From Acidobacteriota bacterium (GTDB lineage: Bacteria > Acidobacteriota > Terriglobia > Acidiferrales > UBA7541), in NCBI GenBank assembly GCA_003152355.1, contig PMAA01000201.1, forward strand, positions 30,811-94,810: a DNA stretch of 64,000 nucleotides. Reading direction: 5' to 3'. Under the pieces are notes generated by a model. That model had not been told where the DNA came from, made no database searches, and saw nothing but the letters and a program-made list of their open reading frames with translations. The translations under genes and the position numbers were made by a program. Positions 2,269 to 15,340 of the stretch are shown piece after piece (positions within the stretch are counted from its first letter, which is position 1; every line of letters starts with the position of its first letter).

Positions 2269-2556
2269 TTGAACTCCTTAAACAAATATACTCGGCATCT
2301 GATCGTGCCCCTGGCACTCGTCGCTCTTCTCGTCATCACGACCACGCTAGGCAACGTCTGGCACCATCACGATTCAAACTCTGAGACCACCTGCCCGATC
2401 TGCCATTTCAATCATCAACCGATCGAGAAGCCGCTCGCCGGCAATCGTCTGCCCGTGCTTATGCCGGTTAGTTCGAGCCCCGATGTGTTTCAGCCTTCCC
2501 TTGAGCCGACGCCAGACTCACACCGCATTCCCGCCCGCGCACCTCCTTCCGCGTAA
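2269..2556 (+). CDS. Small membrane-anchored His/Cys-motif protein (HHHD..CPICH, C-terminal RAPPS)
   Basis: TTG-start ORF with N-terminal hydrophobic segment, WHHHDSNSETTCPICHFNH motif and RAPPSA tail; related to the ORF at 8379-8681. Confidence 0.7.
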   Translation: MNSLNKYTRHLIVPLALVALLVITTTLGNVWHHHDSNSETTCPICHFNHQPIEKPLAGNRLPVLMPVSSSPDVFQPSLEPTPDSHRIPARAPPSA

Positions 2557-2617
2557 TCTTCTGTCTGTGCGTTCTGCGCCGGGCTCGGCGCGTTGATCCA
2601 CTTTTTCCGATTTTCAT

Positions 2618-3904
2618 TTGAATGGTGGTGTTATGCGTTCACGAATACCTTTTTTCGCAGTTTTGTCTGTCCCGCTATTGTGGGCGGGGATCGCCGCTGG
2701 GCAAAGCTCCGGCCCCGTGCGCGTGAGCCTTGACGACGCGATCAAACTCGCGCTGCAGCACAATCACACCCTACTCGCGGCTCGCGTGACGATCCAAGAA
2801 AGCCAGGCCGAGGAGATAACCGCGAATCTGCGGCCGGACCCAGTGCTCGGCGCGGACGCTCAGTTTCTGCCCCTCTTTCAGCCAACTCAGGCTAATGCCA
2901 ATTACTTCGACCAAAACGCGCAGTTCGACATCGGCCTCAGCTATCTCTTCGAGCGCGGCAGGAAGCGCCAGCACCGCCTCCAGGCCGCGAAGGACACCAC
3001 GGCGGTAACAACATCGCAGGTTGCCGACAACGAGCGCGCTTTGACGTTTCTCGTCGCCTCCGATTTCGTCAACGTGCAACTCGCGGAATCCACTTTGGCA
3101 CTCGCCGAGCAGGACCTGAAAAGTTTTCAGAACACGGTCGACATCAGCAATATCCGTTACAAAGACGGAGACATGAGCGAAGCAGACCTGCTCAAAATCA
3201 AACTGCAGCTGCTGCAATTTCAGACGGATCTTTCGCAGGCACAACTCGCGCGGGTGCAAGCGCTCATCATGCTCCGCCAGTCGCTTGGCTTTGAATCCGT
3301 CACGGCAGATTACGACGTGGCAGGAGAACTCGACTACCAGCCGGTCCGCGCAAAGCGCGACGACCTTGAATCGCTGGCCATTCAGCAGCGGCCCGATTTG
3401 CGCGCAGCCGTGCAGGGTGTGACCGCAGCGCAGAGCCAATACGAACTGCAGCGCGCCATCGGCAAGCGCGACATCACGGGGACCGCGGATTACAGCCATA
3501 CGGGAGGCACGAGCGGCATTTCGCTCTTCGCGAGCATGCCCCTCCCCATCTTCGATCGCAATCAGGGCGAAATTGCCCGGACGCGGTATGCCATCACGCA
3601 ATTCCAGGAAACCCAAAAGAGCGCACAGGAACAGGTGTTGACCGACGTCGTCAATGCGTACGAAGGGCTTGAAACGAACGACCAGATAATTCAACTGTAC
3701 CGCGGCGGCTATCTCGATGAAGCCCAACAATCGCGAGACATCAGCGAGTACGCGTACAAGCGCGGTGCTGCAAGCCTTCTCGATTTTCTCGACGCCGAGC
3801 GCAGTTATCGCGCCGTTCAACTCGCCTACCGCCAGTCTCTCGCGGCCTATCAACTCGCGGTCGAGCAGCTTCGCGAAGCGGTGGGCACAAGGAGCCTGCC
3901 GTGA
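2618..3904 (+). CDS. TolC/CzcC-family outer membrane efflux protein
   Basis: 428 aa with signal peptide and OEP repeats (SLDDAIKLALQHNHTLLAARVTIQESQAE...); first gene of an RND tripartite operon. Confidence 0.9.
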   Translation: MNGGVMRSRIPFFAVLSVPLLWAGIAAGQSSGPVRVSLDDAIKLALQHNHTLLAARVTIQESQAEEITANLRPDPVLGADAQFLPLFQPTQANANYFDQNAQFDIGLSYLFERGRKRQHRLQAAKDTTAVTTSQVADNERALTFLVASDFVNVQLAESTLALAEQDLKSFQNTVDISNIRYKDGDMSEADLLKIKLQLLQFQTDLSQAQLARVQALIMLRQSLGFESVTADYDVAGELDYQPVRAKRDDLESLAIQQRPDLRAAVQGVTAAQSQYELQRAIGKRDITGTADYSHTGGTSGISLFASMPLPIFDRNQGEIARTRYAITQFQETQKSAQEQVLTDVVNAYEGLETNDQIIQLYRGGYLDEAQQSRDISEYAYKRGAASLLDFLDAERSYRAVQLAYRQSLAAYQLAVEQLREAVGTRSLP

Positions 3905-5139
3905 AAACGAACAGGCACGCTTCCATCCGAATTCGCAGGAGTGGGGGCGGTAAAACCCGGTGTGATTCGCCCGCGCCGAGAACACGATCTTGGAGAGTGA
4001 ACGTCGCGGTGCTCGCGGTGGTCTTCGCGCTCGCCGGCTGTGGAGAAGGATCAGAAAAGGCCAGCAAAATGACTTCGTTCTCGACAGCGGAAAGTCCCGA
4101 GGCCAAGGCCGAGATCTTCTCACTGCCCACCGGCCAAATGTCTCACATCCAGGTCGTGACGGTCGAGCAGGGACGGCTGACACGCATGCTCCGATTGAGC
4201 GGCGCAGTCGAGTACAACGACTTCAAGACCACGCCAGTAATCACGCAGGTAGGTGGGCCAGTCAGCCGCGTCGTGGTTGCGCCGGGTGAGCATGTGCGGG
4301 CCGGCCAGCCTCTGCTTTACATCGCCAGCCCGGACTACTCTCTTCTGCGGGCAGCTTATATCAAAGCACGTGACGCATTTCAGCTCGCAGACAAGTACTA
4401 CCTCCGCGCGCAGGACCTTTTTGCGCACGGCGCGATTGCCCAGGCCGACCTCGAGCAAGCTGAATCGAACCGCGCGCAGACACAGGCTGACTTCGCGTCC
4501 AGCGCGGACGCCATCCGGATCCTCGGCATCCCGGACCCGGAAACGATTATCAGCAAGGCTCCATCACCGGAAATCCCGCTGTTCTCGCCCGTGGCTGGAG
4601 AAGTCGTCGACCGCGAGTGCTCCGTGGGGCAATTGCTGGCGCCGGGCGCCACGCAGTGTTTCACGCTGTCGGACATGAGTTCGGTCTGGATTCTTGTCAA
4701 CATCTACCAAAAAGACGTGGCCTACGTGCACGTCGGCGATCCGGTGACGATCGACAATGAATCGTATCCCGGCGTCGTGCGCGGCACGATCGAATACATT
4801 TCTCCCGCGCTCGACCCCACCACGCGCACGCTCCAGGCGCGCATTGACGCCCCGAATCCCGGCGAGCGCTTGAAAAAGGAAATGTACGTGACCGCGGAGG
4901 TCCAAGCCGGGGTGATCCCCAACGCAATTTCCGTCCCTAACTCTTCCGTTCTCCGAGACGAACAAAACATGCCCTACGTCTATCTACAAACCGGAAACAC
5001 CCAGTTCGCCAGGCGCGGCGTCACGCTAGGCGAAAGCCAGGATGGAAAAACGCAAATCCTCACCGGGTTGCAAGCAAACGACCGCGTGGTCGGCGACGGC
5101 AGCCTTTTCCTGCAATTCCAAAATTCGCTTCAGCGCTAA
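3901..5139 (+). CDS. RND efflux periplasmic adaptor (CzcB/CusB-type), probable lipoprotein
   Basis: Overlaps the upstream OEP gene by 4 nt; lipobox-like ALAGCG; barrel-sandwich segments (GGPVSRVVVAPGEHVRAGQPLLYIASPDY; SPVAGEVVDRECSVGQLL). Confidence 0.9.
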   Translation: MKTNRHASIRIRRSGGGKTRCDSPAPRTRSWRVNVAVLAVVFALAGCGEGSEKASKMTSFSTAESPEAKAEIFSLPTGQMSHIQVVTVEQGRLTRMLRLSGAVEYNDFKTTPVITQVGGPVSRVVVAPGEHVRAGQPLLYIASPDYSLLRAAYIKARDAFQLADKYYLRAQDLFAHGAIAQADLEQAESNRAQTQADFASSADAIRILGIPDPETIISKAPSPEIPLFSPVAGEVVDRECSVGQLLAPGATQCFTLSDMSSVWILVNIYQKDVAYVHVGDPVTIDNESYPGVVRGTIEYISPALDPTTRTLQARIDAPNPGERLKKEMYVTAEVQAGVIPNAISVPNSSVLRDEQNMPYVYLQTGNTQFARRGVTLGESQDGKTQILTGLQANDRVVGDGSLFLQFQNSLQR

Positions 5140-5158
5140 GGGGTGGCACAGGACTTAG

Positions 5159-8100
5159 ATGATCCATCACATCGTTCAATTCGCTCTCCGCCAGCGCTTC
5201 CTGGTCCTGATGGTGGCAGCGTTCGTGGTCGTTGCCGGGGCGGTCTCGTTTCAGCGGATGCCCGTGGACGCTTACCCGGACCTTTCTCCTCCGCTTGTCG
5301 AGGTCATCACTCAGTGGCCCGGACACGCGGCGGAGGAAATCGAGCGGCTGGTTACACTGCCGATCGAGCTGCAGATGAACGGCGTGCCGCAGATGGTGTT
5401 CATGCGCTCGATCTCGCTCTACGGCCTGTCCGACGTGATCATGACGTTCCAGGACAACGCGGATAACTATTTCGCCCGGCAAGTAGTGTTTGAACGGCTT
5501 TCGGATGCCACGCTGCCTCAGGGCGTGACGGGCAGTCTGGCGCCCCTCTCGAGTCCGTCAAACCTCGTCTATCGCTACGTGATTGAAAGTCCGGACCGCA
5601 CTCCGCAAGAACTGAAGACGTACGAGGACTGGGTGATTGAGCGCGCCTACAAGTCTGTGCCGGGCGTGGCCGACGATTCAGGTTTCGGCGGCACGGTGAT
5701 GCAATACCAGGTACTGCTCGATCCCGCCAAGATTTATAGCTACCACGTCGCCCTACCGCAAATACTGACTGCCTTGGCCGCCAATAATGCCAACGCGGGC
5801 GGCGGTTTTTACTCGCAGGGCTCGCAATTCTTCTACGTGCGCGGACTTGGATTGGTCACCAAAACCGAAGACATCGGCAACATCGTCGTGGGAAATAACA
5901 ACGGTGTGCCTGTGCGCATTCGCGACATTGGCGACGTCACCATCGGCAACGCTCCTCGCCTCGGAGAGTTCGGTTTCCAGAACGATGACGACCGCGTCGA
6001 AGGCGTCATCCTGATGCTCACCGGCGAGCAGACGCAGAACGTCCTCAAACGAGTGGAAGCGAAGACCACGGAGATCAACCGCGATCTCCTGCCGCAGGAT
6101 GTGAAGGTCCGGCCCTACTACGACCGGAGCGACCTGGTACAGGTGACCATCGATACCGTGGAGCATAACCTGCTGCTCGGCATGGCCTTGGTCTTCATTG
6201 TCTTGATTTTCTTCTTAGTCAGCGTGCGCGCGGCGATCATCGTCGCTCTGACCATTCCGCTGAGCTTGCTGTTTTCTTTTATATTCCTGCACGGGCGCGG
6301 CATCCCGGCGAACCTGCTTTCCATCGGCGCGATCGATTTCGGAATCATCATCGACGGCACAGTCGTAATGATGGAAAACATCTACCGCGAGCTGGCCGCG
6401 CGCCACGGACAGGACTACAAACTCCACGAAGTAATTATCGCGGCAGCACACGACGTGGACCGGCCCATTTTTTATTCGATCGCCGTCATTCTTGCCGGCT
6501 ACCTTCCCATCTATGCGCTCAGCGGCCCGTCCGGCAAGCTGTTCCACCCTATGGCGGAAACGATGTCCTGGGCGCTTCTCGGTTCGCTGATCTTCACCCT
6601 CACACTCGTTCCTGTGCTCGCTTCCTATTGGTTCACGCACGGTGTGAAGGAAAAGGTAAACCGCGCGTACGATTGGCTGAAAGACGAGTACGCTTCGGAA
6701 CTCCGTTGGTGCCTGGACCGCCCGAATCTTACGATGATATTGGCCACCATTATTTTCGGCGCTTCGCTTCTTCTGATTCCGTTCATCGGCGGTGAGTTCA
6801 TGCCTCACCTCGACGAAGGAGCCATGTGGGTCCGCGCCACGATGCCTTACACTATCTCCTTCGAAGAGGCGGCCAAATTCGCTCCACAGATCCGCAAGAT
6901 CCTGATGGCGTATCCGATGGTTACCGAGGTCGGCTCCGAGCTGGCGCGCCCCGACGACGGCACCGACCCAACCGGGTTCTTCAACTGCGAGTTCTACGTT
7001 GGGCTGAAACCCTACAAGGATGCGACGTGGACCCGCGGATCGATCCACAACAAAGCCGATCTAACGAAGGACATTCAGAAGAAAGTCGAATCGTATCCCG
7101 GTGTAATTTTCAACTTCACGCAGCCGGCCGAAGACGCCGTGGACGAAGCGCTCACGGGCTTGAAAAGCGCGCTGGCTGTGAAAATTTTCGGCCCGGATCT
7201 GCAGGTACTCGAAGACAAAGCGGTCGAAATCAAGCGCGTGCTCCAGCAGGTGCCCGGCTTTACCGAACTGACCGTCGTTCGCGAGTTGGGACAACCCAGC
7301 GTGAAAATAGACGTGGACCGCGAAAAAATCGCGCGTTACGGCATCAACGTCTCCGATGTCGAGGGCGTAATTCAGGCCGCGGTAGGCGGCCAAGCGGCCA
7401 CGCAAGTGATTCAGGGCGAGCAGCTGTTTGACCTTGTAGTGCGCATGAAGCCTGAATATCGCTCGAGCACGCACGCTATCGGAAATTTGCTGGTGCCAAC
7501 TCCTTCGGGGCAGCAGGTTCCGATTTCCGAGCTGGCCACCATCACTCAGGGCAATGGTGCGTCGTTCATTTATCGCGAGAATAATTCGCGTTACATCGGA
7601 GTTCAATTCAGCATCGAGGGGCGCGACCTGGCCCGCGCAGTGGATCAGGCGCAGAAGGCAGTGCAGTCTTCCGTCAAACTGCCGCAGGGCTACCGGTTGG
7701 ACTGGGGCGGCGAATACAGCGAGTACGTCGCCGCACGACAACAGTTCGCGGTTATCGCCCCGCTCGCCGTTCTCCTGATTTTTACGATTCTGTTCGCGCT
7801 CTACGGCAATTTCAAGTTCCCGATCACCGTTCTCATCGGCGTGGTTATGACGGAACCAGTCGGGGCTTTGCTGGCACTCAAGCTTACGCATACAACGTTC
7901 AGCGTCTCTTCCGTTCTGGGGCTGCTCGTACTGATGGGCGTATCGGCCGAGACTGCGATCATCGACGTCTCGTATATCAATAAGCTGCGTCTCGAAGGAT
8001 TTGGCATCCGCAAAGCCACGCTCGACGGATCGCTGATCCGCCTCCGGCCCATCATGATGACGGCGCTGGTCGCTTGCCTCGGCCTTCTACCCGCGGCGCT

Positions 8101-8245
8101 TTCCACCGGTGTGGGCTCGGACTCGCAGAAACCGTTTGCGATCGTCATTGTGGCGGGACTCGTCTCGCGGCTATTTCTGGGGCGGATCGTGAGTCCGGTG
8201 CTTTACCAAATGGTGGCGCGCGAAGGGGATGTTTTGCAGGTATGA
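5159..8245 (+). CDS. czcA: Heavy-metal efflux RND transporter, CzcA-type
   Basis: 1028 aa HME-RND; TM4 motif DFGIIIDGTVVMMEN matches the DFG...DG...EN signature of divalent-cation (CzcA-type) pumps. Confidence 0.88.
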   Translation: MIHHIVQFALRQRFLVLMVAAFVVVAGAVSFQRMPVDAYPDLSPPLVEVITQWPGHAAEEIERLVTLPIELQMNGVPQMVFMRSISLYGLSDVIMTFQDNADNYFARQVVFERLSDATLPQGVTGSLAPLSSPSNLVYRYVIESPDRTPQELKTYEDWVIERAYKSVPGVADDSGFGGTVMQYQVLLDPAKIYSYHVALPQILTALAANNANAGGGFYSQGSQFFYVRGLGLVTKTEDIGNIVVGNNNGVPVRIRDIGDVTIGNAPRLGEFGFQNDDDRVEGVILMLTGEQTQNVLKRVEAKTTEINRDLLPQDVKVRPYYDRSDLVQVTIDTVEHNLLLGMALVFIVLIFFLVSVRAAIIVALTIPLSLLFSFIFLHGRGIPANLLSIGAIDFGIIIDGTVVMMENIYRELAARHGQDYKLHEVIIAAAHDVDRPIFYSIAVILAGYLPIYALSGPSGKLFHPMAETMSWALLGSLIFTLTLVPVLASYWFTHGVKEKVNRAYDWLKDEYASELRWCLDRPNLTMILATIIFGASLLLIPFIGGEFMPHLDEGAMWVRATMPYTISFEEAAKFAPQIRKILMAYPMVTEVGSELARPDDGTDPTGFFNCEFYVGLKPYKDATWTRGSIHNKADLTKDIQKKVESYPGVIFNFTQPAEDAVDEALTGLKSALAVKIFGPDLQVLEDKAVEIKRVLQQVPGFTELTVVRELGQPSVKIDVDREKIARYGINVSDVEGVIQAAVGGQAATQVIQGEQLFDLVVRMKPEYRSSTHAIGNLLVPTPSGQQVPISELATITQGNGASFIYRENNSRYIGVQFSIEGRDLARAVDQAQKAVQSSVKLPQGYRLDWGGEYSEYVAARQQFAVIAPLAVLLIFTILFALYGNFKFPITVLIGVVMTEPVGALLALKLTHTTFSVSSVLGLLVLMGVSAETAIIDVSYINKLRLEGFGIRKATLDGSLIRLRPIMMTALVACLGLLPAALSTGVGSDSQKPFAIVIVAGLVSRLFLGRIVSPVLYQMVAREGDVLQV

Positions 8246-8378
8246 GAGTGACATCATCCATTAAACGCTCGCAGCTGGCCACTCCGGCCGGACCATCGCC
8301 GCGGCGTGGTCTGATACGTCACCCTTTCGCGTCTAGCTGCGTCTAATTGGCTGATTGGTGGTATACGCTGGCGACTAG

Positions 8379-8681
8379 ATGAACTCAGGTTCGAATTCGA
8401 GGCTCGGCACGTCGAGGCTGTTGGCGGTGTGCCTGGCGCTCCTCGCTCTACTGTTTATTACAGCGGAGTCGAGCCTCGCTCACAATCACGACGACACCTC
8501 TTCCGCGACATGCCCAGTCTGCCACATGGCGCAGCAAGCGCCCGTGCGGACAGCCGTCACCGTTAAGCTGCCGGTGCTTTTTGCGGTGGCTTGGCGCGTG
8601 CCGGGCGAAGTGCTCGCGCCGGAACTCGAGCAACTGCCTGAGGACAATCCCTCCAGGGCGCCTCCTTCGTACTCGGTCTAA
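8379..8681 (+). CDS. Small membrane-anchored His/Cys-motif protein (HNHDD..CPVCH, C-terminal RAPPS)
   Basis: ATG start, N-terminal hydrophobic helix, AHNHDDTSSATCPVCHMAQQ motif, RAPPSYSV tail; resembles 2269-2556. Confidence 0.72.
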   Translation: MNSGSNSRLGTSRLLAVCLALLALLFITAESSLAHNHDDTSSATCPVCHMAQQAPVRTAVTVKLPVLFAVAWRVPGEVLAPELEQLPEDNPSRAPPSYSV

Positions 8682-8786
8682 CCTCTCCGACAATCGTCAT
8701 GCCGCTCCGCAATGCGGAGTGGCCCCTTTTCCACTCATACACCGGGCAGCCCGATTGGGCCGTTGCCCATCCCGTGGGAGGGACAA

Positions 8787-11836: not shown

Positions 11837-14800
11837 ATGGGTGGGATCAGGTTAAGACGTCGGATTTCCCGGTTTCTGCTGCCTCTCGCGTTTTTCGTCT
11901 TGGCATGGACGGCCGCGGCTGGCGTCGGCGGGAGCATTTCTGGAACAGTCAAGGATCCCTCCGGCGCCGTGATACCCAAAGTCGCAGTGACAGCGACTAA
12001 CATCGGCACCGATATCCGGCAATCCGCAGAGACTGACGGCAAAGGGGTGTACGTCTTCCCCGCTCTTGCGGTAGGCCGCTACGATCTTGAATTCGGACGG
12101 GCTGGCTTCAGGCCTTTTCGGCGCACGGGAATTGTTATAGACGCGAACTCTGCCTTGCTGGTGGACGCAGTATTAGAGGTGGGCACCCAGACGGACACCG
12201 TTACGGTGAGCGACACCGCAATTCACGCCGAGACATCCAGCACGCAGATGGGTGAGGTCATCACTGGCGCGAACATGACCGCTGTCCCGTTGCTTGGCCG
12301 AAGCTTCACTGACCTACTCGCTCTTCAACCCGGAGTCGTTCCCGCCACATCCATCACATCCGAAACCGTCCAGGACGTGGGGGCAAGCGCGTTTTCACCG
12401 TCGGGCGACCTGAATCCAGGCACCATATCAATTAACGGCCAGCGTGAATTCGCGAACGCTTTCATCGTCAATGGCAGCGACGTCGAAGAGGACGTCAATA
12501 TGGGCACGGCGATTGTCCCGAACTTGGATTCCATCGCCGAATTCCGCATCCTCACAAATAATTTCGACGCTGAATACGGAGAATTCAGCGGCGGCCAGAT
12601 CAACGTCATTACAAAGTCCGGAACAAATCAGTTTCATGGCGATGCTTTCGAATTTCTCCGCAATACCGATCTCGATTCGCGCAACTTCTTCTCACCGGCG
12701 CGCGGCGTGTACCAGCAGAACCAGTTTGGTGGAACGGTGGGAGGCCCGATCAAGCGTCAGAAAGTTTTTTTCTTCACCGATTATCAGGGGACGCGGCTGA
12801 AGCAAGGCGTTGACACTGGATTGATCCCAGTCCCATCTTTGCTGGAGCGGACGGGCGAGGTCGGTGCGCTATCCGGCACGGTGACTGGACTAAATTGGGC
12901 CAGCCTTTTGTCTAAGGAGTTGCACTACACGGTTTCGCCGGGAGAATCTTACTCGAGCGTTTTTCCGAGTGGCACGATTCCGCAAAGCGCGTGGTCCGCT
13001 CCGGCCCAGAACTTGTTGCAATACATTCCGAAGCCGAATCAATCCGGCAATCTCTTTTCGACTTCCGCGGTTGACCAGACCCTCGGCGACGACAAAGGCG
13101 CCCTGCGCATCGACGCCAATACGCATCTGGGACTGATCTCCGGCTACTACTTCATGGATTCCTTTTCCCAGAACAATCCGTATCCCACAGCACAGGGCGG
13201 AGCGAACGTGCCAGGGTTCAACGACCTGAACTTTGGCCGAGCGCAATTGTTGAGCCTGGGTGACACGATACTCAGCGGAACCGGAGTCAATGAATTTCAC
13301 TTCAGCTATTTGCGCGACGCCACCGATCTGGGAGAGCCCGTTGGCGGCGTGGGCGTGAGTCTGGCGTCACAAGGCTTCGTCACCGGCGCGGGGACATCAG
13401 GTATTGTCCCGTTGTCGCCCCAAACCGTGGGAGTGGAGAGCGTCGCCTTCAACAATTTCACCATCGGCACGAATCCCAACAACCTCAGGCAAGTGAACAA
13501 CACATTTCAATGGATCGACAATTTCTCAAAGGTCATCGGCGCGCACACCATCAAGGCGGGCGTGGAAATCCATTACGACCAGGTCAACACATTCCCGATT
13601 GCCCAGTTCAACGGAAGCTTTTTGTTTTTCGGCAGCGAGACGGGATCGGACTTCGCCGACTTCCTGTTGGGCATTCCAAGCCAGTACAACCAGAGTGAAC
13701 TGCAGTCCTTCTATGGCCGGAACAGATACGCGGCCGTCTTCGCGCAGGATAGTTGGCGGCTGAAATCCAATCTCACGCTGAATTACGGCCTGCGCTGGGA
13801 TCGCATCGAGCCGTGGTATGAAAAGTACAACCAACTGAGCGTATTCGAACCGGGTAGACAATCGGTAGTCTTTCCTGGCGCGCCCGCGGGCATCTTGTTC
13901 CCTACCGATCCCGGAGTCTCCCGCACGTTGGCGCCGCCGGGGAATCTCGATTTCGCCCCTCGCATCGGCTTGGCGTATTCACCGACCGCCGGCCGCGACA
14001 CTGTTCTCGGAAAAATTCTCGGAGGCCCAGGGAAGTCGAGCGTGCGGGCCGGCTTCGGCCTTTACTACACGGCGATTGAAGCGCTGACGATCGGCGTCTT
14101 GAGCGCGAACGCGCCTTACGGAACCACATACTCGAGCCCCGCTCCGCCGTTGTTCGCCACGCCTTTCATCACCGCCTCGACGGGAAAGAATCGCGGCCAG
14201 CACTTTCCCGCGCAACTCGCTCCCCTGGACAGCTCGGCAAGCCATCCCGATCCCAACGTGGACTGGTCGCAATACGAACCGATCAGCGGGATTCCTGCTT
14301 ACCCTCCCTCGAACCGCATTCCGTACACCGAGGAATACATGCTGTCGCTCGAACGCCAGTTGAATTCCAACACGCTGCTCAGCGTCAGTTATGTGGGAAC
14401 GCAAGCGCACCGCCTTCTGGTTCTCATCGAGGCAAATCCGGGTGATCCGGCGCTCTGCCTCAGTCTCAGCGAGCCGAGTGACGTGATGCCCGGCACACCA
14501 ACGTGCGGGCCCTTCGGTGAGAGCAACGTATTCACGACCGCTTCGGGCCAGGTAATCAACGGAACGCGAGGGCCGCTCGGGCCAAATTTCGGAAGCGACG
14601 CTGACCAAGCGACGATTGGCAATTCTAGTTACAACGCGCTGCAACTCAGCCTCCGCCATACCAGCGGACGCCTGCAATTCTTTGCGGGCTACACGTTCAG
14701 CAAATCGATGGACCAGGCTTCGAACGTGGGTGAACAAGTTAATCCGATAAATCCCGCGCTCAGCAAAGCTCTCTCCGCGTTCGACGTGAAGCACAACTTC

Positions 14801-15340
14801 GTCATCAGCTACAACTACGAACTGCCCATTGACCGCCTCTTCCGCACGGCAAACCGCTGGACTCATGGCTGGGCAATCTCGGGCATCACTCGTTTCAGCA
14901 GCGGCTTTCCCGTGACGCTCTTCAACTATGGCGATAACTCGTTGTTGGGCGCCGAACCGAACGGCATCAACAACTTTGGCGTGGACGAGCCTGATTTCAC
15001 TCCAGGGCCGCTCGATCTCAATCACAATCCTCGCAACGGGCAGCCCTATTTCAACACTTCGCTATTCAGCCTGCAGCCGCTCGGCTCGCCCGGAAATTCG
15101 CCGCGCCGCTTCTTCTACGGTCCCGGCATCAACAATTTCGACATGGCATTGCTCAAGACTGTGCGATTGAAAGAATCCACATCGCTGCAATTTCGCCTCG
15201 AAGCATTCAACGTCTTTAATCACGCCCAGTTCTATGGCCCGGCGTCGGTGGACGGCAACATCAACAGCACTACGTTCGGACAAGTCGTAAGCGCGGCGCC
15301 CCCGCGTCTGATGCAGGCGGGTGTGAAGCTGGAGTTCTGA
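11837..15340 (+). CDS. Carboxypeptidase regulatory-like domain / TonB-dependent receptor (Oar-like)
   Basis: 1167 aa; GGSISGTVKDPSGAVIPKVAVTATNIGT N-terminus, plug motif EYGEFSGGQINVITKSGTNQFHGDAFEFLRN, C-terminal LMQAGVKLEF. Confidence 0.92.
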   Translation: MGGIRLRRRISRFLLPLAFFVLAWTAAAGVGGSISGTVKDPSGAVIPKVAVTATNIGTDIRQSAETDGKGVYVFPALAVGRYDLEFGRAGFRPFRRTGIVIDANSALLVDAVLEVGTQTDTVTVSDTAIHAETSSTQMGEVITGANMTAVPLLGRSFTDLLALQPGVVPATSITSETVQDVGASAFSPSGDLNPGTISINGQREFANAFIVNGSDVEEDVNMGTAIVPNLDSIAEFRILTNNFDAEYGEFSGGQINVITKSGTNQFHGDAFEFLRNTDLDSRNFFSPARGVYQQNQFGGTVGGPIKRQKVFFFTDYQGTRLKQGVDTGLIPVPSLLERTGEVGALSGTVTGLNWASLLSKELHYTVSPGESYSSVFPSGTIPQSAWSAPAQNLLQYIPKPNQSGNLFSTSAVDQTLGDDKGALRIDANTHLGLISGYYFMDSFSQNNPYPTAQGGANVPGFNDLNFGRAQLLSLGDTILSGTGVNEFHFSYLRDATDLGEPVGGVGVSLASQGFVTGAGTSGIVPLSPQTVGVESVAFNNFTIGTNPNNLRQVNNTFQWIDNFSKVIGAHTIKAGVEIHYDQVNTFPIAQFNGSFLFFGSETGSDFADFLLGIPSQYNQSELQSFYGRNRYAAVFAQDSWRLKSNLTLNYGLRWDRIEPWYEKYNQLSVFEPGRQSVVFPGAPAGILFPTDPGVSRTLAPPGNLDFAPRIGLAYSPTAGRDTVLGKILGGPGKSSVRAGFGLYYTAIEALTIGVLSANAPYGTTYSSPAPPLFATPFITASTGKNRGQHFPAQLAPLDSSASHPDPNVDWSQYEPISGIPAYPPSNRIPYTEEYMLSLERQLNSNTLLSVSYVGTQAHRLLVLIEANPGDPALCLSLSEPSDVMPGTPTCGPFGESNVFTTASGQVINGTRGPLGPNFGSDADQATIGNSSYNALQLSLRHTSGRLQFFAGYTFSKSMDQASNVGEQVNPINPALSKALSAFDVKHNFVISYNYELPIDRLFRTANRWTHGWAISGITRFSSGFPVTLFNYGDNSLLGAEPNGINNFGVDEPDFTPGPLDLNHNPRNGQPYFNTSLFSLQPLGSPGNSPRRFFYGPGINNFDMALLKTVRLKESTSLQFRLEAFNVFNHAQFYGPASVDGNINSTTFGQVVSAAPPRLMQAGVKLEF

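Follow-up and report, generated by a model that had tools for sequence, protein, structure and literature searches.

Putative metal-sensing arrest peptides ahead of an RND efflux operon and a TonB-dependent receptor gene in an Acidobacteriota bacterium

Organisation of the locus

We analysed a stretch of 64,000 nucleotides (the window) from an Acidobacteriota bacterium (assembly GCA_003152355.1, contig PMAA01000201.1, positions 30,811 to 94,810), in which two related small open reading frames (ORFs), A and B, lie on the same strand as the three genes of a metal efflux pump located between them. Judging from their sequences and gene neighbourhoods, A and B are very probably both cis-acting regulatory upstream ORFs (uORFs) of the CruR/CutF, DUF2946-like kind, in which a metal-dependent ribosome arrest at a C-terminal RAPP motif would control the downstream gene.

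The features listed in this section are on the forward strand. uORF A (2269..2556), a putative metal-sensing arrest peptide resembling CruR and CutF, starts with TTG and encodes 95 residues. Its CxxC codons (CPIC, residues 42-45, 2392..2403) specify a putative metal site together with a flanking His, and its RAPP codons (2536..2547) lie 44 residues further on, in the C-terminal sequence RAPPSA. The leader that follows contains a hairpin (TGCGCCG-GGCT-CGGCGCG, 2575..2592) placed 21 nt past the uORF A stop and covarying among relatives. After a gap of 76 nt comes the gene of the outer-membrane efflux protein (outer-membrane factor, OMF; 2633..3904; PF02321, E=4.7e-47), then those of a CzcB-like periplasmic adaptor (membrane fusion protein, MFP; 3901..5139; PF16576, HlyD_D23, and TIGR01730, RND_mfp) and of a resistance-nodulation-division (RND) permease of the CusA/CzcA family (ACR_tran; 5159..8245; TIGR00914, 879.6 bits for a cut-off of 701). 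These three genes form a heavy-metal efflux RND operon.

uORF B (8379..8681), the second putative arrest peptide, starts with ATG and encodes 100 residues. Its CxxC codons (CPVC, residues 45-48) are at 8511..8522 and its RAPP codons at 8655..8666, again 44 residues past the CxxC, in the C-terminal sequence RAPPSYSV. A hairpin of 10 bp with an AAU loop (8701..8723) occupies its leader, and 105 nt separate it from the gene of a TonB-dependent receptor (CarboxypepD_reg, Plug and barrel domains; PF13620, PF07715; 8787..11639). This receptor gene, putatively controlled by uORF B, was absent from the preliminary description of the locus, which had otherwise placed both ORFs and the efflux genes correctly.

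The source assembly comprises 4.58 Mb in 280 contigs and is 86% complete. Searching it with a profile of the family recovered A and B only, with no third copy. As none turned up despite the many further RND genes of the genome, the pairing of A and B is peculiar to this locus. In other genomes of the same bacterial family, two copies again share a contig at a distance of about 6 kb, so that the arrangement is not due to chance. A DUF2946 match elsewhere in the assembly (C42) carries an internal stop and was set aside.

Sequence features of the two small proteins

A and B had been presented as a related pair, which BLASTP bears out (38% identity over 72 residues, E=7e-13), and both carry the N-terminal hydrophobic helix, the HxHD and TCP[IV]CH motifs, the K/R-LPVL segment and the RAPPS tail. 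A resemblance to DUF2946 had been suspected as well. It holds in so far as DUF2946 is the only Pfam family matching both proteins in a search with hidden Markov models, although neither score reaches the family cut-off; within the family, 12 of 17 aligned members match it at E<=0.05 (best E 1.5e-5). The residues invariant in this 17-member alignment are one His, the two Cys of the CxxC and the R, A, P and P of RAPP.

A and B are probably exported and, with this invariant His and CxxC, probably metal-binding, and to that extent the earlier idea of a periplasm-facing, metal-binding pair is retained. Two periplasmic accessory proteins, CzcI- or CusF-like, working with the efflux pump would explain the export helix, the His and CxxC residues and the linkage to a ZneA-like pump. 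Yet the AlphaFold model of uORF B consists of one confident helix and is of low confidence beyond it, and an invariant C-terminal RAPP suits arrest rather than a folded chaperone. For these reasons, and for those of gene placement and spacing given below, we regard an accessory role at the pump as improbable.

Comparison with known systems

Among the closest known systems is CruR of Bordetella pertussis (bp2923, DUF2946), the copper-responsive uORF ahead of the BfrG/CrtA receptor operon (PMC9426467, PMC12992588). The CxxC of the CruR nascent chain senses copper, the ribosome is arrested at its C-terminal RAPP, and Rho-dependent termination before the TonB-dependent receptor gene depends on the result (PMC9426467). 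In vitro experiments have demonstrated the arrest at RAPP (PMC12992588), and its relief by copper is a feature expected of the class. Because the RAPP conserved at the C-terminus of A and B is the ribosome-arrest motif of this homologue (PMC9426467, PMC12992588), they too would act as cis-acting regulatory uORFs. Like CruR, A and B are small exported uORFs with a CxxC, a CxxC-RAPP spacing of 44-45, a C-terminal RAPP and an excess of C over G (C>G bubble) at the arrest site, and uORF B shares with it a TonB-dependent receptor gene downstream. They differ from CruR in their size (95-100 residues against 145), in the length of their leaders (76 nt for A and 105 nt for B, against an intergenic region of 162 nt) and in their DUF2946 score, which is weaker. 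Moreover, they occur as two tandem copies, one of them before an efflux operon, the receptor is of the CarboxypepD_reg type, and the metal is putative whereas CruR responds to copper.

CutF of Rhodobacter capsulatus is another exported peptide with a Cys motif, a proline-rich C-terminus and a leader stem-loop; there, copper strengthens the stall and opens a stem-loop hiding the Shine-Dalgarno (SD) sequence (PMC9973294). An efflux OMF gene is the commonest downstream neighbour of CutF-like proteins (PMC9973294). However, CutF has a CxxxC where A and B have a CxxC, and the pump-type hairpin described below leaves the SD uncovered. The CutF-like proteins also include CzcI of Cupriavidus metallidurans, a small exported protein encoded upstream of czcCBA, which speaks for an accessory role; CzcI, unlike A and B, has no C-terminal proline arrest motif (PMC9973294). 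Finally, CC2720 (DUF2946) heads the Caulobacter czrCBA-zntA operon of the zinc regulon, where it was considered a hypothetical component of the periplasm or membrane and placed under Zur control (PMC4176598). The likeness lies in a DUF2946 or DUF2946-like ORF standing first in the operon of a zinc-linked RND pump; an arrest function of CC2720 is putative, and no receptor-linked twin such as that of the A/B pair is described for it (PMC4176598). First position in a metal-homeostasis operon is also what we find for the A/B family, whose members head OMF, receptor and ZnuAB-type operons.

Genes preceded by the uORFs

To see which gene each ORF belongs to, we used 80 named Acidobacteriota loci that had been collected with the RND protein as bait and were hence not selected for small ORFs. 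All 15,284 stop-to-stop ORFs of 50-400 residues in these loci and in the window were surveyed by motif only, the criteria being a terminal R[AG]PP and a CxxC located 38-52 residues upstream of it. Sixty-eight ORFs ended in R[AG]PP and 55 of them also contained the CxxC. All 55 directly precede either an OMF gene (36) or a receptor gene (19), and none is located elsewhere. The small ORF accompanies the receptor gene even when 2.4 kb separate the latter from the pump (L051) or the two lie on different strands (L059, L065, L076, L084, L087). It was detected before 18 of 20 receptors of the same subfamily, or 19 when the variant motif RPPP is counted, and before 35 of 70 OMFs, or 49 when RPPP, RSPP and RASP are allowed.

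From this placement, and from the ORFs that stay with the receptor, we conclude that each ORF heads the gene next to it and that the apparent bracket is made of two units in series. The preliminary description, in which the pair bracketed the pump, has to be revised on this point: copy B tracks the receptor, not the pump, which also speaks against a pump accessory, as do the copies preceding receptors and porin-ZnuAB operons. The survey of neighbours that it proposed links the homologues to metal transport.

Several observations accompany this survey. The RPPP variant, with a spacing mostly of 43-44, is common in other Acidobacteriota; it replaces RAPP, at spacings of 43-45, in L060, L068, L072, L073, L077, L079, L080, L085, L088, L103, L104, L107 and several of L162-L180. 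It is possibly a variant arrest motif beyond the RAPP and RGPP on which PMC12992588 concentrates. Two tandem CxxC-RAPP uORFs stand ahead of a single receptor gene in L144 (positions 12191 and 12646, forward strand). In one genome of another family (G326:C12; L164, L183, L184), several RGPP uORFs are clustered near MacB/FtsX-like and AMP-binding genes, not metal genes. Within the window, the receptor gene is directly followed by another large gene for an outer-membrane protein, of TonB/CarboxypepD_reg appearance (11837-15340), and no CxxC-RAPP uORF was found when we looked for one before it.

Spacing between the CxxC and RAPP motifs

Among 94 non-identical peptides, the distance between the CxxC and RAPP was 44 residues in 81 cases, 42 in 10 and 45 in 3; it is 44 in both A and B. 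The interval is free of gaps in the 17-member alignment, while the 44-residue spacers have a median identity of only 14% and the distance from the first Met to the CxxC varies with a standard deviation of 21. For comparison, the CruR spacing is 45, it is kept to within 1-2 residues across DUF2946, and adding 5 residues abolishes control (PMC9426467). A constant length combined with a drifting sequence is expected if what matters is the number of residues from the metal site to the peptidyl-transferase centre and not their identity. The same fixed and nearly unconserved spacer would be out of place in a folded chaperone.

Arrest peptides of the RAPP type often monitor the Sec/YidC machinery (PMC12992588), and each uORF begins with an export helix, so that A and B could be SecM-like monitors of protein export in which metal is needed solely for folding. 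The genes downstream, however, are metal transporters and receptors instead of sec genes, and the CxxC is invariant; we consider this explanation very unlikely.

Leader RNA and arrest-site mRNA

The leaders fall into two classes according to the gene that follows. Pump-type leaders have a median length of 81 nt, and the 5' arm of their hairpin begins about 18 nt past the uORF stop, where the folding energy shows a sharp dip. In 16 such leaders, 13 double-change cells were counted against 4.4 after shuffling, and the covariation score was 0.361 against 0.179 (none of 500 shuffles as high) and 0.04-0.12 when slid; since the leaders are related, this covariation is support for the hairpin and not proof of it. 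Receptor-type leaders, with a median of 132 nt, are longer and fold more strongly (mean z -1.5), and the whole leader of uORF B folds better than its shuffles (z -2.7).

Around the end of the uORF, both classes are C-rich, G-poor and weakly folded, with average C and G contents of 0.48-0.50 and 0.21-0.22, respectively. On these class averages, a C-rich, unstructured, rut-like region overlaps the uORF end, and Rho loading is predicted there. Rho itself is encoded in the genome, by a gene split across two contigs. The synonymous codons of RAPP avoid G, the first Pro being CCT in 54% of cases compared with 12% in neighbouring genes, and the pump-type arrest site is less paired with its natural codons than with synonymous ones (p=2.8e-5).

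A possible variant of the regulatory-uORF reading, to which we attach a rather low likelihood, is a translational switch of the CutF type, in which metal would strengthen the stall and thereby open a leader stem-loop hiding the downstream SD. The leader hairpins are conserved, certain receptor leaders contain a stretch with complementarity to the SD (CTCTATCC with GGATGGAG), and activation by copper in CutF has a sign that would fit an exporter (PMC9973294). Against it, the pump-type hairpin leaves the SD free, pump leaders are no more complementary to the SD than shuffled ones (mean z 0.07), and the slight excess in receptor leaders is weak (mean z -0.64). The CCTCC codon bias had further suggested that the RAPP codons act as an anti-SD hiding the downstream SD; this candidate was rejected, as synonymous recoding had no effect on the pairing (p 0.3-0.7). 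In the window RNA, the 3' arm of the uORF A hairpin can alternatively pair with the OMF start region, and this window-specific fold hides the OMF SD. The CutF route is thus possible for receptors and, through this alternative fold, for uORF A.

Directly 5' of uORF A lie genes that appear pheT-like (3-1754) and zapA-like (1787-2155) from their translations. An Rfam search of the interval between zapA and uORF A returned neither a 6S RNA nor any other match, and a known riboswitch or leader was discarded in the absence of an Rfam match.

Proposed mechanism

In the mechanism that we propose for the two regulatory uORFs, the exported nascent chain would bind metal through its His and CxxC as this site exits the ribosome, with 44 residues still to go before the arrest point. 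Whether or not translation halts at the C-terminal RAPP would depend on this binding, and an arrested or a released ribosome would then decide on downstream expression, that of OMF-MFP-RND for A and that of the TonB-dependent receptor for B. A transcriptional output as in CruR seems likeliest: an arrested ribosome would mask the C-rich and unstructured stretch around the stop codon where Rho would load, and its release would expose this stretch. The leader hairpins may contribute to the decision. We prefer this Rho route because the natural codons keep the pump-type arrest site less paired than synonymous ones do, an SD-hiding role of these codons is unsupported, and pump leaders have no excess of SD complementarity. 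For A and B themselves, we infer arrest, metal binding and the involvement of Rho.

Some results weigh against this mechanism. The DUF2946 scores of A (17.1 bits) and B (18.5 bits) lie under the Pfam cut-off of 23.7 bits, which makes the two proteins DUF2946-like and not members of the Pfam family. A recognisable uORF is missing in 21 of the 70 pump operons, among them L037, the pump of which is 94% identical to that of the window. The excess of C over G at the arrest site is partly imposed by the RAPP codons, and both the codon and the folding tests use related, non-independent sequences. A consensus promoter and an intrinsic terminator were sought near both uORFs and neither was found, which also removes an intrinsic terminator or a sigma-70 promoter as an explanation. 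Lastly, the same module ahead of an exporter and of an importer, as described in the next section, is hard to explain if the metal acts with a single sign.

Apart from its RND gene, L037 (Acidobacteriaceae bacterium SbA1) has a more divergent OMF, no uORF that we could find and no receptor behind the pump. It looks as if the pump gene had been exchanged without its regulatory leader.

Metal identity and importer operons

The nearest solved relative of the RND protein is the zinc exporter ZneA (762 bits, against 481 bits for CusA), and the DFGIIIDG motif is kept. The PDB entry of ZneA describes it as a CzcA-like heavy-metal pump; with CzcA it represents the divalent substrate class, and CusA the monovalent one. 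In genomes of the same family, CxxC-RAPP uORFs also head 21 of 24 porin-ZnuA-ZnuB operons (among L118, L135, L145, L153 and L190-L207), often beside a uORF-headed receptor. These importer operons encode a porin or outer-membrane-like protein of about 470 residues, which has no Pfam match and ends in GAHGAHPF, followed by ZnuA (PF01297) and an ABC-3 permease (PF00950). The peptide core of the uORF is 84% identical between an RND operon (L086) and a porin-ZnuA-ZnuB operon (L198), and the leaders of L086 (uORF-leader region 7078-7475), L200, L202 and L118 have a mean column identity of 79%. Given this closeness of uORF and leader, one and the same module precedes an exporter in one species and an importer in another.

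Taken together, the ZneA-like pump, the ZnuAB operons, the Caulobacter czrCBA-zntA precedent and the His beside the CxxC suggest that zinc is no less likely than copper. Either exporter and importer are switched alike, or the pump does not serve detoxification, or small changes in the leader flip the sign. We tentatively put forward, as a possibility below even chances, a transferable nascent-chain sensor of zinc (or of a mixed divalent/copper signal) in Acidobacteriota, in which a His/CxxC peptide with a 44-residue ruler to RAPP would be placed, together with its leader, before an RND exporter, a porin-ZnuA-ZnuB importer or TonB-dependent receptors. If true, a zinc sensor would require same-direction switching of exporter and importer, or a reversal of sign by a few leader nucleotides. 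To our knowledge, a zinc-responsive arrest peptide would be the first known.

Evolution and significance

A tree of the peptides requires 8 changes between OMF and receptor as the downstream label, compared with 31 after shuffling, the alignment being short and many forks unresolved. We rejected an ancient split between pump-type and receptor-type peptides on account of these 8 changes and because the copies of one locus are close relatives in some genera, as in one genus represented by L039, L040, L041 and L070, and in L047. Such closeness within loci points to repeated duplication or conversion of the copies.

The metal-sensing arrest peptides that the literature we found describes in detail both concern copper and come from Proteobacteria: CruR of B. 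pertussis and CutF of R. capsulatus, which respond with opposite signs. What would be new here is the occurrence in Acidobacteriota, the tandem pair, the combination of a pump and a receptor, a module common to import and export, and possibly zinc. As many genera kept the number of residues between metal site and arrest point while nearly all of the intervening sequence drifted, the family lends itself to a clean physical test of the way in which metal binding influences a stalled ribosome. With the same module on exporters, importers and receptors, natural leaders only a few bases apart allow testing what sets the sign of the response. For the annotation of Acidobacteriota genomes, the small Cys/His proteins encoded beside metal pumps are probably leaders, not chaperones.

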